Position numbers and translations under genes: made by a program. Positions 51,653 to 61,756 of a stretch of DNA of 64,000 nucleotides are shown here, piece after piece (position 1 is the first letter of the stretch; the number at the start of each line of letters is the position of its first letter). Source of the stretch: Methylomonas sp. MK1 (GTDB taxonomy: Bacteria; Pseudomonadota; Gammaproteobacteria; Methylococcales; Methylomonadaceae); the NCBI RefSeq assembly GCF_000365425.1, contig NZ_AQOV01000001.1:2294001-2358000 (forward strand), read 5' to 3'. The notes beneath the pieces were generated by a model, which saw only the letters and a program-made list of their open reading frames with translations, ran no database searches and was not told where the DNA came from.

Positions 51653-53431
51653 TTAAGGCAGTTTGTAGACGTGGACTTTACCACCGGTCTTGGCCGTGCA
51701 GGCCCCGCCGCCAAAGCCACCCGCCATGGCGCCGACGCCACTAAACACCGCGACGCGTTGCAGGTTGTCGGGACCGGTAAACGTAATGGGGTTACCGACA
51801 GTACTGCACTCCATGGTTTTAGACCACAACAGCTTGGGCACGCCATTCACGGCTTGTTCAGGACGAGCGTCGATGGCTTTAAAGACTTTGTCTTGGGTGC
51901 CGTAAAACAACAGTCCTCCGCCCGTGCTGAGTACCCCGCCGTATATGGCACTACGCTCTTTCAAACCAAAAGCTTTCTGGCCTTTGGTCACATCCCAGGC
52001 AATCAACTCGCTGGTATAGGAAGTGTCGGAGGCCGGTGCAATTGCCATGTCCATTGCCATGTAAGGCGCACCGTAAACGTACTCGGCTTTCAACATGTGC
52101 ATGTTCATACACAGATTAAAGGTCGGCATGTAGAACAAACCGGTTTTTGGCGAGAATGCACCGGGCTCCCAGCCTTTGGCGCCCAGGGCTGATGGACAAA
52201 TGTCAAAGGTAGTTTTGCCGGTGTGCGTCAGCTTATCCGGATTAACCACAGGACGTCCGGTGGTTAAATCGATGCTGCTAGCCCAGTTGACTTCGGGAAT
52301 AAATTGGTCGGCTCTGACAATTTCGCCGGTTTCCCGATCTAGCGCATAGGCAAAGCCGTTCTTATCGAAGTGCACCAGGAGTTTATGGGCCACACCGTTG
52401 ATAGTTTGCGTAACCGATATGTTTTCGCTGTCAGCGTCGTAATCCCAGTTATCATGCGGCGTGGTTTGATACACCCATTTCACTGCACCGGTATTGGGGT
52501 CGCGGGCAAATATTGACGAGCCCCATTTGTTGTCGCCGGGCGCGCGGACGTCAGGGTTCCAGACGCCCGGTTGACTGGTGCCATAGAATACGGTGTCGGT
52601 TTCCTTGTCGTAGGTCAGATAAGCCCAGGCCGAGCTGCCACCTTGTTGCCAAGTATTGCCAGGCCAGCTTTTTTGGCCCAAATCGGTATTTTGACCGGCT
52701 GTGGTATAGGGCAATTTGGTTTGGCTATTGATCAAAACATCTTTGTCCGGTCCGGTGTTGTAACCGCGCCATAGTTCTTTACCAGTATTCAAGTCTAGCG
52801 CTAGCACCCAGCCTCTGACCCCCATTTCGCCGCTGACTGTACCGCTAATGACCTTGCCATTAACGATGACGGGTGCACCGGACATGGTAACTCCGGAACG
52901 CACGTCCGCTGTGGTATTACGCCAGATTTCCTTGCCGGTTACCGCGTTAACAGCCACTGTGGTGTTATCGAGTAAATTGAACACGATCTTGCCATCGGCG
53001 TAAGCAGCGCCACGGTTGATGGCGTCACAGCAATGTACGCCTTTGGCGTATTTATTAATTTTGGGTACATAGGTCCACAGGACCTTACCTTTGTTCGCCA
53101 GATCGTAAGCAATCAATTTATTCGGGAAAGGCGTCACGACGTAAAGTTTAGAGCCAATCACCAATGGCTCACCCATATGACTACCCTTAACCCCGGTATC
53201 CACCGAATACTCTTCAGCCAAACCGGCGACATTGGCGGTATTGATTTGATCAAGTTCGCTGTAGCGTTGACCATCCGGGGTTCCGCCTGGGGTTGTCCAA
53301 TCCGTGCCGGCCTGCGCCGAACCGATCAAACAGGCTGATCCGATTAAGATAGCGCTCACCGCGCTTTTTAGCTGAAATTGAGACGCTCGCGATGGCTGCT
53401 GATTTCCGCTAAGCCGTTGTTGAATAAGCAT
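51653..53431 (-). CDS. PQQ-dependent alcohol/methanol dehydrogenase, XoxF-like
   Basis: 592 residues: N-terminal extension and signal peptide (about 20-41) and an eight-bladed quinoprotein propeller. The adjacent-Cys disulfide C134-C135 (HCCD), E202, N292, catalytic D330 and the extra D332 (WDYD) are seen; the last is the hallmark of lanthanide-dependent enzymes, where MxaF has Ala. The HDNWDYDADSE context is unlike the HDEWDYDGVNE-type of common XoxF5, so it belongs to a less usual clade. Oxidises primary alcohols in the periplasm. Strong TAAGGAGG ribosome-binding site; hairpin in its leader. Confidence 0.88.
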   Translation of the reverse strand: MLIQQRLSGNQQPSRASQFQLKSAVSAILIGSACLIGSAQAGTDWTTPGGTPDGQRYSELDQINTANVAGLAEEYSVDTGVKGSHMGEPLVIGSKLYVVTPFPNKLIAYDLANKGKVLWTYVPKINKYAKGVHCCDAINRGAAYADGKIVFNLLDNTTVAVNAVTGKEIWRNTTADVRSGVTMSGAPVIVNGKVISGTVSGEMGVRGWVLALDLNTGKELWRGYNTGPDKDVLINSQTKLPYTTAGQNTDLGQKSWPGNTWQQGGSSAWAYLTYDKETDTVFYGTSQPGVWNPDVRAPGDNKWGSSIFARDPNTGAVKWVYQTTPHDNWDYDADSENISVTQTINGVAHKLLVHFDKNGFAYALDRETGEIVRADQFIPEVNWASSIDLTTGRPVVNPDKLTHTGKTTFDICPSALGAKGWEPGAFSPKTGLFYMPTFNLCMNMHMLKAEYVYGAPYMAMDMAIAPASDTSYTSELIAWDVTKGQKAFGLKERSAIYGGVLSTGGGLLFYGTQDKVFKAIDARPEQAVNGVPKLLWSKTMECSTVGNPITFTGPDNLQRVAVFSGVGAMAGGFGGGACTAKTGGKVHVYKLP

Positions 53432-56503: not shown

Positions 56504-56980
56504 ATGAATCAACTTGCCGATGTAAACAGTGTCGCGGAGCTTGAAGTCGACGCAGATAAGCTGATCGTGGCTTTTGCAAGTTCCGATGGGGAAATGGTCA
56601 ATCAGCATTTCGGGTCATCCTTGGGATTTCATGTCTACGCTATAGACGGCAGTTCCGCGACGCCTTTGGCGGCTAAGTCGTTTGGTAAGGAACAACGAGA
56701 CGGGAATGACGACAAATTAAAGCCTAAGCTGGCCTGGTTAACGGGCTGCGATATGGTTTATTGCGGCTCCGTCGGCGGCACGGCGACCAATGAGTTGATC
56801 AAATTGGGCGCGCATCCTGTCATCGTTAAAGGCGGTCCCGACATTGAAGAAATCATTACCGAGTTACAACAAGACATTTCCGGGGCCATGTCGCCGCTGC
56901 TGGAACGCATTTTTAAACAAAAAACGGTTAAAGATAGTAGCCGTTTTGCAGAGATGGCTGACGAAGACTGGGCTGAATAA
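56504..56980 (+). CDS. NifX-family dinitrogenase iron-molybdenum cofactor biosynthesis protein
   Basis: 158 residues. The NifX/NafY-type cofactor domain (about 18-120) shows VAFASSDGEMVNQHFGSSLGFHVYAID, and CDMVYCGSVGGTATNELIKLGAHPV. Such proteins carry NifB-cofactor or other metal clusters. The C-terminal tail (SRFAEMADEDWAE) is as in NifX of gammaproteobacteria. AGGAG ribosome-binding site. No nif structural gene is in the window, so it may be a stray copy. Confidence 0.85.
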   Translation: MNQLADVNSVAELEVDADKLIVAFASSDGEMVNQHFGSSLGFHVYAIDGSSATPLAAKSFGKEQRDGNDDKLKPKLAWLTGCDMVYCGSVGGTATNELIKLGAHPVIVKGGPDIEEIITELQQDISGAMSPLLERIFKQKTVKDSSRFAEMADEDWAE

Positions 56981-57383
56981 GGATGCCCGGCAATTTTGCC
57001 TAAACGCAATCCAAGCATTCATCTTACAACTCGGCCTTCTCTCGGCTCGGTTTCGCTAGCCGACACTGAGGAAGCTCGCCATCACATACTACTGAATCCG
57101 GTTCGTCAGCCTACCGCCTGCTCTAACGTGCGCGTTGCCCTCCCCCGTCTCTCGGCGACATCGGTAACCATCGCATTTTTTGTGCTCGCCAGCGGCATTG
57201 ACGCCAGTGCCGCCACCGTTCAATTAGCTTTTTCTAAACTCAGGGCCTTCGGTCTTTACCCCGCGATTTTCAATCGCCAGCCTTTTGGCCCCTAGGCGAT
57301 GCCGTTTGTGACTGATTTATGACCAATTTTTAGACTGCCGTTTCATCTATACTATGGCGTGATTTATTGCTTCTCGCACACGG
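56981..57383. other. Intergenic region before the kinase locus
   Basis: About 400 bases. A 99-codon open frame (56996-57295) has no ribosome-binding site or recognisable product. A TATACT (57348-57353) about 30 bp before the kinase gene could be its -10, without a good -35. Confidence 0.45.
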
Positions 57384-58841
57384 ATGAAATTTAAAAATTT
57401 TTTATCGTTAAAGTCCCTGATCGTCCTGGGCTTTGTCATTGCGGTGATTCCGCTGTTTCTGGCCGTCATGTACGCCGCTTTCGGCATGCGCGAAACCTCG
57501 GCGCTGGGCCGCACCGTCAACACGCATGTCTTCGAACAAACCAAAACCATCCGCCTGGTTTTACAAAAAGCCTCCGATATAGAGCGTAAGGCCAAGCTGT
57601 TTGTGTTGCTGTCCGACCCGACACTGCGCCAACCCTACGAACGGCAATCCTACGAAACAGTGCGGGCCTCGTTTAAACAGGCGTTAGGCGATTTGCTTAA
57701 ATTGCATGTCGACAACAAAATCGCACTGCTGGTCAACGAATTATCCGAGAAGGAAAATCTGATTTATCAACAAATCATCGGCTCGGATGACGAAAACAAT
57801 CTGGAATTGCCGATAGACGAGGCTTTCCAGGGTTTGCGCGAATCGGCCGCCACCCTATCCCGCGAGTTTGAAAACCACGTCGATCACGAATTCAACGAAC
57901 TGCACCAATTGTCGGAATCGCTGGAGCATGGTCTGTTGGTCAAGGGCGCGGTATTGCTGGCAATTTCGTTCAGCGTGATCGCCATCCTGTTGATCGTGTT
58001 ATCGCGTTCGATGCGGCAACTTGACGTATCGATACGGCGTTTGGGCGCGGGCGAATTGGCCGAACCGATTCTGGTCAACGGTCCGTCGGATTTACGTTAT
58101 CTGGGCAACCGTTTGGAGTGGCTGCGCACTCACTTGCTGGAACTGGAAGTGTCCAAACAACAATTTATGCAAAACGTCGCCCGCGAGATAGAACTGCCGT
58201 TGGCAAGCCTGCGCCAGGATGCCGAACTGTTGGCCGGGGAAACCGACTACGACCCCAACAGCAAGCGGGAAAACACGGTGTTGCATTTATGCGCCAATAT
58301 CGAAAAGTTAAACACCGTATCCGAGGAACTGCTGCGCTACAGCCGGATCAACTCCCTGCCCGACAGCAAACGCAAGGAAAGTGTAAACATCAAAGATTTG
58401 CTGGAAACCGTCATTGACGATTTTCAACCCGTTTTAAGCAGTAAAGCTATTGCTATCCGCATGCTGGCACGGCCGGTGGAAATTTCCGGCATTCCCGAGC
58501 AATTGCGTGCGATCATCGAACAATTGCTGACCAACGCCGTGAAATTTTCGCCGGAAGGCGGCGAAATTCGCGTCATATTGCGCGACGCCGGCACGCTAAT
58601 GGAACTGGAAGTGGAAGACGAAGGCCCAGGTATCGCCGCCGACGAACGCGATCATATCTTCGAACCGTTTTATCGCGGCAAGGCTGGCGATACAGGCGAT
58701 AGTGATGGCCCCGGCCTGGGCTTGGCCATCGTCAAGGAATACGTCGCCAATCATCAAGGCAAAGTCGAAGTCATCGATGCCCGTCAAGACCAACAAGGAG
58801 CCCGCATCCGGGTTCAAATTCCGTTAAACGGGGAGAATTGA
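57384..58841 (+). CDS. QseE/GlrK-like sensor protein lacking the phosphoacceptor His
   Basis: 485 residues: membrane helix (about 11-31), periplasmic helical sensor region (about 35-185), second membrane helix (about 187-207), HAMP (about 208-260), then DHp and ATPase domains. The H-box reads FMQNVAREIELPLASL: Arg267 (codon CGC, 58182-58184) takes the place of the His in the usual SHELRTPL. The ATPase motifs are intact (EQLLTNAVKFS, DEGPGIA, IFEPFYRG, GPGLGLAIV), so ATP may still be bound. It overlaps the QseG-like gene by 4 bp. It cannot autophosphorylate on His in the normal way; a regulatory pseudokinase is suggested. Confidence 0.9.
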   Translation: MKFKNFLSLKSLIVLGFVIAVIPLFLAVMYAAFGMRETSALGRTVNTHVFEQTKTIRLVLQKASDIERKAKLFVLLSDPTLRQPYERQSYETVRASFKQALGDLLKLHVDNKIALLVNELSEKENLIYQQIIGSDDENNLELPIDEAFQGLRESAATLSREFENHVDHEFNELHQLSESLEHGLLVKGAVLLAISFSVIAILLIVLSRSMRQLDVSIRRLGAGELAEPILVNGPSDLRYLGNRLEWLRTHLLELEVSKQQFMQNVAREIELPLASLRQDAELLAGETDYDPNSKRENTVLHLCANIEKLNTVSEELLRYSRINSLPDSKRKESVNIKDLLETVIDDFQPVLSSKAIAIRMLARPVEISGIPEQLRAIIEQLLTNAVKFSPEGGEIRVILRDAGTLMELEVEDEGPGIAADERDHIFEPFYRGKAGDTGDSDGPGLGLAIVKEYVANHQGKVEVIDARQDQQGARIRVQIPLNGEN

Positions 58842-59422
58842 GGAACATGCAGGCACTATTTATGCGCGTATTGACGCTGATCGCATCATTGTTGGCCATC
58901 AGCGGCTGCGCCGAGGTGGATTCCAGCGTCAGGGAACATTTTCCAACCATTCACAGCGCCCCGGTGGTGCATTCCGATATAGACGAGCTGCTGGAATTCG
59001 GCAACAACCTGGCCAACATGACCACGGCGGGTCGCACCGAGACTTGCCGGTCTTTAGTGAAACGCCAAAAAGACGAACCCGAGATTGGAGTGTTATTGCA
59101 TTTGATGGTGGGCCGCCTGTTATCCGATGCCTGCGGCGACATTCCCAAAATTCTGGATGAAATTGCCGGCATCCCCCCCTCGGGCTTGAGCGACGAACGC
59201 ATGCGCCACCTGGTTGCCATTCACACCGAAGCCTTAAAGCGCATCAACAGCGCATCAAGGAAACTCGGCTCATTGGAACGGAAACAAAAAACCGTGCAAA
59301 ACGTGCTGGAAACCAAAGACGCCGCCGGTTCCAAGAAAGAAGAATCAAGACTGCTGCGCGAAAAACTGGAAGCCATCCGTTCGATGGAAAAGCAATTGGA
59401 CGAGACTAGCGAAGGCAAATAA
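58838..59422 (+). CDS. QseG-like outer-membrane lipoprotein
   Basis: 194 residues with signal peptide and lipobox ISGC (Cys about residue 24), a helical body with two further Cys (ETCRSL, SDACGDI) likely bonded, and a C-terminal coiled coil rich in Glu/Lys. Size, position after the QseE-like gene and the pattern match QseG/YfhG, which activates QseE in enterics. ATG overlaps the preceding stop region by 4 bp. Confidence 0.75.
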   Translation: MRNMQALFMRVLTLIASLLAISGCAEVDSSVREHFPTIHSAPVVHSDIDELLEFGNNLANMTTAGRTETCRSLVKRQKDEPEIGVLLHLMVGRLLSDACGDIPKILDEIAGIPPSGLSDERMRHLVAIHTEALKRINSASRKLGSLERKQKTVQNVLETKDAAGSKKEESRLLREKLEAIRSMEKQLDETSEGK

Positions 59423-59427
59423 AGCCA

Positions 59428-61014
59428 ATGTTTCGGTTTCGCTTGGCGATAGTCATTGTTGTTTCTTTCTGCTTTGTGTTGAGTTTGGGCATTGCCTTGT
59501 ATTGGGGAGCCAACGAAGTAGCTCGCTATTTTCAGCACAGCCAAACCGCTTACGAAACCTTCGACGATTACGAACAGCTGTCGCAAGAAGCCTATCGCCA
59601 TTTCAAACAACGCATGGACCGGCTGATCACGGCCAACCCTAATTCGGAAACCGGCGTGGAGTCTTCCAAGCGCCGTCTTTACGAGGCCATGCAAACGCTA
59701 CGCGACACTGCCGTCAAAACGCCGGGTACAGACAGCGCCAGCGAAGACTGGACCAATAAACCCGCAGAATTGGAGAAAGTCGCCCATCTCACCGCTTTCC
59801 TGGAAGCCAGCGAATATCGCTTCGAAGAAGTCGAGCGGCTGCGCTTGCAAGGTAAGCTAACTACCGCCGTGCAGGCTTTGGCTAAATTCACCGAGGAAGA
59901 AATCGACGGTAAGTTTCAACCCTTGATTGACGCCGCCATTAACGCCGAGCGGGAAAAAGCCAGGAAAGCCAAGCGGGAGTTGGAGATTTTGGTCGAAAAG
60001 TCGCGCTGGACGGCGATTTTAGCTTCGTTAACCGCGGCGTTATTCAGCTTGGTAGCCGGCATCATGTTGCTCCGCGCGTTTAAAAAACCTATCGAAGCGC
60101 TAATGAAAGGCACGGACGAAATCGCCTCCGGCAACCTGGATTACCGGATTGCCTTAGACAGCCGGGACGAATTTGCGTATCTGGCCAGCCACTTCAATCA
60201 AATGGCCAAGGAACTGGAAGTCCAACAAGATAAACTACGCGAAGGCCGCGCCGTGTTGGAAGAGCGAGTGACCGAGCGGACCTTTGAACTTAATCTGTTG
60301 AACGAAGAATTAAAGCGCATGGATAATGCCCGCCGTGAGTTTTTGGCGGACATCAGCCATGAACTGCGCACGCCGATCACGGTGATTCGCGGCGAGGCGG
60401 AAGTGACGCTACGCGGCCAGGACCGCGACGCCGAAGAATATAAAGACGCATTGCAGCGCATCGTGGAGCTATCGATGCAGTTGGGCAAATACGTGAACGA
60501 TTTACTGTTTCTGGCCCGCGCCGACACGGCCAATCTGCAATTCGAATGGAATAAAGTCGACTTGGCGGATTTGGTGGCCAGCAGCGTCGAGGATTTTCAG
60601 GTGATGGCGCAAGAGTATTCGATTTCGGTCAGTCTGGACGCGCCGTCCGGGCCGCTACTGGTGCGAGGCGATAAGCAGCGGCTACGGCAAGTGCTGTTCA
60701 TTCTGGGCGAAAATGCCTGCCGCTATTCCAAACCGCTCGGCCATATCGCCGTGGCTTTATGGCGCGACGGCAAACAGGCCTGTTTCAGCCTGACCGATCA
60801 GGGCATAGGCATACCGACCGAGGATCTGGAGCGCATTTTCGAACGCCACTTCCGCAGCAGCAACGCCCAACATTCGCGAGATGACGGCTCCGGCCTGGGT
60901 TTGCCGATGGCCAAATCCATCCTGCAAGCTCACGGCGGGCAAATCGCGGTGCGTAGTGTCGAAAACGCCGGATCGACATTTACGGTTACACTACCCCTGC
61001 TTACGGTAGCATAA
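59428..61014 (+). CDS. Membrane sensor histidine kinase
   Basis: 528 residues: membrane helix (about 7-27), periplasmic helical region, second helix (about 195-217), HAMP (about 218-270), coiled coil, then DHp with intact H-box ISHELRTPI (H311) and ATPase domain with GENACRYS, DQGIGIP, IFERHF and GSGLGLPMAK. Signal unknown. 13 bp before a response-regulator gene, so the pair is almost certainly a two-component system; the QseE-like pseudokinase and lipoprotein immediately upstream may modulate it. Confidence 0.93.
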   Translation: MFRFRLAIVIVVSFCFVLSLGIALYWGANEVARYFQHSQTAYETFDDYEQLSQEAYRHFKQRMDRLITANPNSETGVESSKRRLYEAMQTLRDTAVKTPGTDSASEDWTNKPAELEKVAHLTAFLEASEYRFEEVERLRLQGKLTTAVQALAKFTEEEIDGKFQPLIDAAINAEREKARKAKRELEILVEKSRWTAILASLTAALFSLVAGIMLLRAFKKPIEALMKGTDEIASGNLDYRIALDSRDEFAYLASHFNQMAKELEVQQDKLREGRAVLEERVTERTFELNLLNEELKRMDNARREFLADISHELRTPITVIRGEAEVTLRGQDRDAEEYKDALQRIVELSMQLGKYVNDLLFLARADTANLQFEWNKVDLADLVASSVEDFQVMAQEYSISVSLDAPSGPLLVRGDKQRLRQVLFILGENACRYSKPLGHIAVALWRDGKQACFSLTDQGIGIPTEDLERIFERHFRSSNAQHSRDDGSGLGLPMAKSILQAHGGQIAVRSVENAGSTFTVTLPLLTVA

Positions 61015-61027
61015 GAGGGATTTTCAT

Positions 61028-61756
61028 ATGAATGAGAAATACATGACAACCAATACTCTGACGGGGATAGGCTATATGCGGGTGCTGATGGTTGAAGACG
61101 ACGAGCGCATCATCGATTTCGTACAACGCGGCTTAAAAGCCGAGGGCTATGCCGTAGAGGTGGCCCGCAGTGGGCAAGAGGCCATTGCCTTGGGTACCGA
61201 GGGCAGCTTTCAGGTGATCATTCTGGACTTGGGCCTGCCGGACATGAACGGCCGGCAGATTTGCGAACGTTTGCGCAGCAACAGCATCGACACCCCGATT
61301 TTGATGCTGACCGCGCGCGATACTGTGCAAGACAAAGTGGCCGGCCTACGCTCCGGCGCCGACGACTATATGACCAAGCCGTTCGCGTTTGAAGAATTAC
61401 TGGCCCGTATCGAAGTTTTACTCAGGCGGCGCGGCGGCGAAGTGAAGCAGGACGATAAAGAATTGCGTATCGAAGACCTGGTACTCAACGGCGAAACCCA
61501 CGAGGTACGCCGCGGCGATAACGTCATCGAGTTAACACCCAAGGAGTTTGCTTTGCTGGAATGCTTTATGCGCATGCCGGGTAAAGTGTTGAGCCGCACG
61601 CGAATTCTGGAACAAGTCTGGGGCTATAGCGCCGATCCGCTGACCAATGTGGTGGATGTTTATATTCGCCAGCTACGGCGTAAAATCGACGACGATTACG
61701 AGCTGAAATTGCTGAAAACCGTGCGCGGCTTTGGTTACAAAATGGATGCGTCTTGA
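61028..61756 (+). CDS. OmpR/PhoB-family response regulator
   Basis: 242 residues: receiver domain with acidic pocket (VEDDERI), phosphoacceptor D67 (ILDLGLP), T/K in LMLTAR and MTKPF, and a C-terminal winged helix (ELTPKEFALLECF...VDVYIRQLRRKID). AGAGGG precedes the ATG at 61028, giving 16 extra residues before the receiver; an internal ATG at 61076 is the alternative. Confidence 0.94.
   Translation: MNEKYMTTNTLTGIGYMRVLMVEDDERIIDFVQRGLKAEGYAVEVARSGQEAIALGTEGSFQVIILDLGLPDMNGRQICERLRSNSIDTPILMLTARDTVQDKVAGLRSGADDYMTKPFAFEELLARIEVLLRRRGGEVKQDDKELRIEDLVLNGETHEVRRGDNVIELTPKEFALLECFMRMPGKVLSRTRILEQVWGYSADPLTNVVDVYIRQLRRKIDDDYELKLLKTVRGFGYKMDAS

Follow-up and report, generated by a model that had tools for sequence, protein, structure and literature searches.

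A four-gene run in Methylomonas sp. MK1 encodes a QseE/GlrK-type kinase homolog that lacks the phospho-accepting His (K1), a QseG-like lipoprotein (LP), an intact sensor histidine kinase (K2), and an OmpR-type response regulator (RR). K1 is probably a former QseE that has lost its own output and that would now serve, together with LP, as an accessory sensor of K2. The genes lie in a stretch of 64,000 nucleotides, here called the window (NCBI RefSeq assembly GCF_000365425.1, contig NZ_AQOV01000001.1, positions 2,294,001 to 2,358,000; genome code G000), and form a tight run on the + strand with intergenic gaps of 5, 5, and 13 bases (Table 1).

K1 was matched to the QseE chain 9m08_C over residues 8 to 481 (phmmer, E value 6.8e-39) and to K-12 GlrK in the kinase half (BLASTP, 29% over 293 aa). 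Its H-box is VAREIELPL, where ordinary relatives mostly have (V/I)SHE(L/I/V/D)KTPL; the phospho-accepting site is occupied by Arg267, and there is no His in the H-box. The N-box, G1, and G2 are all present and normal. Pfam scores were 90 bits for HATPase_c and 19.9 for HisKA, which is under its cut-off of 26.9, and no Hpt family was found among the Pfam matches at E ≤ 0.001. In K2, the HisKA, HAMP, and HATPase_c domains were all over cut-off, and His311, the N-box Asn429, and the G1 Asp457 were invariant in 19/19 aligned sequences. Response_reg and Trans_reg_C were found in RR. The earlier note on this DNA had read Arg for the phospho-accepting His, a flanking drift that made a single base error unlikely, retained ATP-binding motifs, and a QseG-like lipoprotein, a normal kinase, and an OmpR-type regulator directly after K1; all of this was borne out by the codon read-out, the alignments, the open frames, and the Pfam matches. 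Judged from these residues, the usual route of phosphotransfer to a regulator is closed to K1 and open to K2.

For comparison, 124 loci were fetched from 61 near relatives and 301 order-level (Methylococcales) genomes, and K1 was aligned. A quick tree was built after removal of the H-box columns, using 112 of the 125 aligned rows; 13 fragments, truncated rows, and near-identical rows were left out. Two clades were obtained with a Shimodaira-Hasegawa-like approximate likelihood ratio test (SH-aLRT) support of 100, one with 43 rows that all have His (ordinary copies) and one with 69 rows, 65 of them non-His (dead copies, including that of the window), and two changes of the His/non-His character are needed on this tree. 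Among full copies, the ordinary clade has His in 46/46 and Thr at H+4, a residue with a role in phosphatase activity, in 46/46; this list at first held 47 rows, including one truncated copy (L132), and was recounted without it. In the dead clade, His is absent from 67 of 71 full-length copies (from 69 genomes), and Thr at H+4 is present in only 8. The residues at the site are Arg (49), Leu (5), His (4), Asn (3), Glu (3), and Thr (2), with Tyr, Lys, Cys, Ile, and Asp in one copy each. A special role for Arg was rejected because 11 different residues occur there; of the Arg that the earlier note had singled out, what is conserved in the Methylococcales alignment is the loss of His and not Arg itself. 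The ATP site is largely retained, with the N-box Asn in 69/71, the G1 Asp in 71/71, and all three checked residues in 68/71 copies; the N-box is lost in G034 and G005.

Sequencing error or recent mutation was rejected because the nearest relatives of the window also have Arg (codon CGC or CGT) and the same loss is found across many genera. Close relatives with His, on which the earlier note had made its reading depend, do exist as four Methylomonas copies (L041 to L044, from G002, G012, G035, and G021; codon CAC, with CGC in the sister G018). These copies are nested among Arg forms, and their motif, HEIEAPL, lacks the Lys and Thr found in the ordinary HE-x-KTPL. Their His therefore looks like a secondary regain, and the loss otherwise holds across the clade. 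The four genomes offer a natural experiment on whether a His in an otherwise dead H-box is by itself enough to restore any function. At class level, 28 fetched loci were scanned with one motif; the H-box motif was found in 22, all with His, and 6 gave no motif match. By these alignments, the loss of His in K1 is a clade trait and not a local mutation, and the dead form is present in 78/301 Methylococcales genomes. Two genomes (G088 and G095) also have second, degraded dead copies (L116 and L119, with Asn and Asp as site residues) that lack the QseG-contact segment and have no adjoining LP gene.

The gene neighbourhoods of the two clades differ. Ordinary copies are followed by the NtrC-type regulator QseF/GlrR in 45/46 cases, the remaining copy being near a contig end, and by K2 in 0/46; a lipoprotein gene was detected next to 29/46. 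Downstream of the fetched dead copies (n = 70), within the fetched DNA, QseF was found in 0, LP in 68, and K2 in 60. When 13 genomes were searched with QseF of G057, the best match was 73-100% in genomes with an ordinary copy (G057, G095, G051, and G111) and ≤46% in nine dead-form-only genomes, from which, on this evidence, the cognate regulator is gone.

Across the 301 genomes, dead K1 and K2 were found together in 74, dead K1 only in 4, K2 only in 1, and neither in 222; this count is given without a P value, as the genomes are related and not phylogenetically independent. The dead-K1-only genomes are contig-end pieces (G023 and G261) or drafts (G068 and G134), and the K2-only genome (G136) is 72% complete. 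G023 was scored as dead-form by similarity alone, from a 94-residue fragment short of the H-box. Seven unfetched K1 matches (G072, G075, G082, G207, G236, G297, and G301) were counted as not dead-form, and five K2 matches confined to the kinase half (G110, G177, G257, G038, and G045; E values 1e-41 to 1e-45) were dropped. Of the 74 double carriers, 65 have linked K1-LP-K2 loci (61 fetched loci, the window, and G106, G113, and G116 with sensor-only K1), 7 have the two halves apart, G100 has them as a divergent neighbour pair, and G125 is an unresolved draft. G125 also has extra K2-like frames (L171 and L172) in which the residues up to 298 are joined directly to 412-524, with the DHp segment absent and a regulator next; these are on draft contigs and are possible assembly errors.

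Selection on K1 was compared using ratios of nonsynonymous to synonymous substitution rates (dN/dS) from 20 pairs of dead and 12 pairs of ordinary copies; pairs that gave no value owing to saturation were dropped, and some sequences occur in several pairs. Median dN/dS was 0.039 for the sensor, 0.103 for DHp, and 0.100 for the ATP-binding (CA) region in dead copies and 0.100, 0.014, and 0.064, respectively, in ordinary copies. By these medians, purifying selection acts on every part of K1, with the strongest constraint shifted from DHp to the sensor. Within K1, DHp evolves fastest, with a mean distance of 0.858 compared with 0.184 for the K2 DHp. If K1 were a pseudogene in decay or the product of sequencing errors, the fast DHp, the truncated copies of seven genomes, and the degraded L116 and L119 would be accounted for; this explanation is extremely improbable given 71 full-length open frames, dN/dS medians of 0.04-0.10, and the same loss across many genera.

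The sensor also retains the residue by which QseE contacts QseG. In QseE, R70 is reported to be required for QseG binding (PMC12691602; the system is also treated in PMC6075780). The equivalent in the window is Arg68, and this Arg is present in 69/71 full-length dead copies, both misses being L116 and L119. It is also retained in the truncated K1 copies (4/4 in the alignment), and the motif ERKAR was likewise seen in three on the sensor tree. In seven genomes the kinase half of K1 is absent and the sensor is retained, by two events on the sensor tree. K1 of G106, G113, and G116 consists of the first transmembrane (TM) helix, the sensor, and the second TM helix only, followed immediately by the LP gene and then by K2; G109, also with a kinase-less K1, retains LP-K2-RR too.

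The relation of LP to enterobacterial QseG is inferred from gene position, a C-terminal motif, and a weak profile match. LP has the lipobox ISGC with Cys21 invariant in 33/33 aligned sequences (by motif), and it was aligned with K-12 QseG over 175 columns (hhalign, probability 72.7, E value 3.2e-5 for a single comparison), a weak match. Glu181, which corresponds to QseG Glu213, does not vary among the 33 aligned sequences, and the position of QseG Leu209 is Ile. The C-terminal motif was found in 70/71 dead-type LPs, the exception being G134 (L128), and was missing in 4/29 ordinary LPs. The AlphaFold2 model has a helical head and a single long C-terminal helix, with a predicted local distance difference test score of 87.9. 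LP was assigned to no family in Pfam and NCBIfam, where only weak coiled-coil-type matches were seen, and a PDB profile search did not recover QseG, the remaining matches looking like chance.

Rates of K1 and K2 were correlated after correction for RR and the K2 CA region, using all 53 rows and three subsets. The sensor-sensor correlation was 0.69 with all rows and 0.42, 0.76, and 0.43 in the subsets, and the DHp-DHp correlation was 0.26, -0.24, 0.37, and -0.20 across the four row sets. This pattern suggests that K1 and K2 make contact at the level of the sensor and not of DHp, and a DHp heterodimer as the main mode was disfavoured by these values.

In the arrangement that we favour, the outer-membrane LP would bind a dimer of K1 on the periplasmic side, in the manner of QseG and QseE. 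The membrane and sensor part of K1 would contact the sensor or TM helices of K2 and shift its kinase/phosphatase balance, with K2 as the presumed sole phosphorylator of RR. ATP binding by K1 may govern the conformation of the K1 dimer itself and would be dispensable in some lineages. By analogy with QseG, K1 and LP probably respond to the condition of the cell envelope; whether K1 raises or lowers the activity of K2 is not predictable from the present data. The tuning of K2 by K1 and LP, as proposed in the earlier note, is thus inferred from comparative evidence.

Several findings weigh against this arrangement. The K1 sensor also correlated with the K2 DHp (0.57, 0.14, 0.71, and 0.20 across the same row sets), and the LP rate correlated with both sensors (0.28-0.58), so the sensor-level signal is not clean and includes shared ancestry. 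The equivalent of QseG Arg219, reported to be essential in Salmonella, is not conserved in LP, and Foldseek with the LP model gave no PDB match at E ≤ 0.001 and no QseG-like structure. The ATP site of the dead copies is needless for a pure sensor role, and its retention is unexplained by an accessory sensor. The persisting site is the best argument for a K1-K2 heterodimer in which K1 is a kinase in trans, its ATP-binding domain phosphorylating the His of K2 by the logic of FasB/FasC or RetS-GacS; a FasB/FasC heterodimer with one dispensable kinase domain has been reported (PMC12675982). We consider this unlikely, as the DHp-DHp rate correlation is weak or negative, the mean alignment score of the K1 and K2 DHp is 41.3 in dead compared with 59.8 in ordinary copies, the ATP site of K2 is itself intact, and the K1 kinase half is missing from seven genomes and its N-box from G034 and G005. 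The seven truncated genomes and the fast DHp likewise make it quite improbable that K1 is a phospho-state or ligand sensor whose DHp binds a response regulator, as DivL does DivK~P, and relays to K2; in its favour, DivL has Tyr in place of His and is reported to have no kinase or phosphatase activity (PMC4211667).

Gene order also bears against the accessory-sensor arrangement in part. The earlier note had expected K1 to be encoded with the second system in relatives, which is so in the linked carriers; in seven Methylococcaceae-type genomes (family code f4: G057, G071, G088, G095, G108, G129, and G130), K1-LP and K2-RR are apart, with both present. G136 and 6 genomes from other orders have K2-RR without K1-LP, and K2 can presumably work alone there. 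Both observations would fit a K1 and LP independent of K2-RR, with K1 binding LP or some other partner and the operon shared by history only. This is a doubtful alternative given that both halves still co-occur in the seven genomes and that dead K1 is present in 74/75 genomes with K2 (a count that is not phylogenetically independent).

The distribution points to how an accessory sensor of K2 could have arisen. Within the dead clade of the quick tree, genomes with the two halves apart branch below those with linked loci, so co-occurrence seems older than the operon. Outside the order, among 369 genomes of the class that were searched, a K2-like kinase and regulator were found in the same 6 genomes; no LP match was found near these six loci at E ≤ 0.01, and one of them (L211) had one generic match to the kinase half of K1. 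As such pairs occur without LP in other orders, K2-RR was probably an independent pair that later acquired K1-LP. We give somewhat less than an even chance to the view that QseG and the QseE sensor were transplanted as a whole module from their own kinase output to the two-component pair of an unrelated kinase. The old kinase would then have become a receptor subunit that links the outer and inner membranes and drives a foreign pair through sensor or TM contacts; the module would first have co-occurred with K2 unlinked, later in one operon, and in some lineages would have shed its kinase half. The K2 sensor region was predicted as long helices able to form a four-helix bundle, the fold reported for the QseE sensor (PMC12691602); domain placement in this model is unsafe because its predicted template modelling score is 0.44. 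With the K2 model, the top 50 Foldseek rows were histidine-kinase structures and gave no sensor assignment.

Among known systems, QseE-QseG-QseF (GlrK-QseG-GlrR) is the closest in parts, with a full-length match of K1 to QseE, an adjoining LP with the same terminal helix, and conserved equivalents of QseE Arg70 and QseG Glu213. It differs in that K1 has no His, a separate kinase and an OmpR-type regulator stand in the place of QseF, and Arg219 is not conserved. RocA of group A Streptococcus is a kinase-like protein without kinase function that modulates another sensor kinase, CsrS/CovS, in the membrane; it is reported to bind CsrS there, its TM domains alone being enough for this action (PMC6635533, PMC7028121), and the K1 forms reduced to the sensor hint at the same here. 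By contrast, RocA spans the membrane six times and retains a His; the cited passages describe neither a lipoprotein partner nor a shared operon, and no relatedness to K1 is implied. In Caulobacter, DivL, also with a non-His site, acts on another kinase, CckA (PMC4211667); unlike K1, with its ATP-site residues and periplasmic sensor, DivL is cytoplasmic, acts via DivK~P and PAS domains, and binds ATP poorly. The Rcs system (RcsF, IgaA, RcsD, RcsC, and RcsB) likewise joins an outer-membrane lipoprotein, an inactive kinase-like membrane protein, an active kinase, and a regulator in one envelope pathway (PMC13317618). RcsD has an Hpt domain, which K1 lacks by Pfam, and RcsF acts through IgaA. FasB-FasC (PMC12675982) and the ChrS pseudokinase with HrrS (PMC9491836) have two kinase-like proteins per pathway, one of them a proposed or shown pseudokinase, and heterodimerise (FasB-FasC by proposal); here no DHp-level coupling was detected in the rate correlations.

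The earlier note had called the arrangement new. There is precedent for accessory pseudokinases that act on a second sensor kinase (RocA, DivL, and RcsD); what appears new in K1-LP-K2 is its components, its origin, and its spread throughout a lineage. In the literature on QseE/QseG and on methanotroph and Methylomonas kinases, nothing on this system was found in the titles and abstract beginnings of the matches listed. The genomes form a natural series of sensor rewiring, from the ordinary QseE-QseG-QseF system through an unlinked second copy without His and an operon with a new pair to a sensor-only remnant. As every step is found in living genomes, the origin and signalling of histidine-kinase-type pseudokinases are directly testable in methanotrophs, with no pathogen needed. 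The system is also a candidate envelope sensor in bacteria important for methane removal.

Table 1. Features of the K1-LP-K2-RR run, in positions of the window.
Feature	Position	Strand	Basis or remark
K1, His-less QseE/GlrK-type pseudokinase, 485 aa	57384..58841	+	Open frame, full-length match to QseE chain
K1 periplasmic sensor and flanks, aa 34-192	57483..57959	+	QseE alignment, approximate boundaries; most constrained K1 part in the dead clade
Arg68 codon, equivalent of QseE Arg70 (needed for QseG binding)	57585..57587	+	Alignment
K1 DHp region, aa 255-325, fast-evolving	58146..58358	+	Approximate boundaries
CGC, Arg267, phospho-accepting His position	58182..58184	+	Codon read-out
CTG, Leu271, at H+4 (Thr in ordinary copies)	58194..58196	+	Alignment
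K1 ATP-binding (CA) region, aa 330-482	58371..58829	+	Pfam, motifs
LP, QseG-like lipoprotein, 191 aa, lipobox ISGC, C-terminal helix LREKLEAIRSMEK	58847..59422	+	
K2, intact sensor histidine kinase, 528 aa	59428..61014	+	Pfam domains
RR, OmpR-type response regulator, 242 aa	61028..61756	+	Pfam domains

The start of LP was placed at the ATG at 58847; the mechanical list of open reading frames begins LP at the TTG at 58838. Near-identical loci are from Methylomonas (M. methanica, M. fluvii, Methylomonas sp. LW13, and others). A TATACT box and its flanks upstream of K1 (57300-57383) are alike in close Methylomonas relatives by eye only and may be the operon promoter; in a promoter and terminator consensus scan, in which this box was not scored, counts were the same as in shuffled sequences. 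A NifX-like protein (Pfam Nitro_FeMo-Co; TIGR02663 below cut-off) is encoded at 56504-56980; only in the closest relatives does its gene directly precede K1. Further upstream, on the - strand at 51653-53431, is a long frame that we take to resemble a pyrroloquinoline quinone (PQQ)-dependent alcohol or methanol dehydrogenase.

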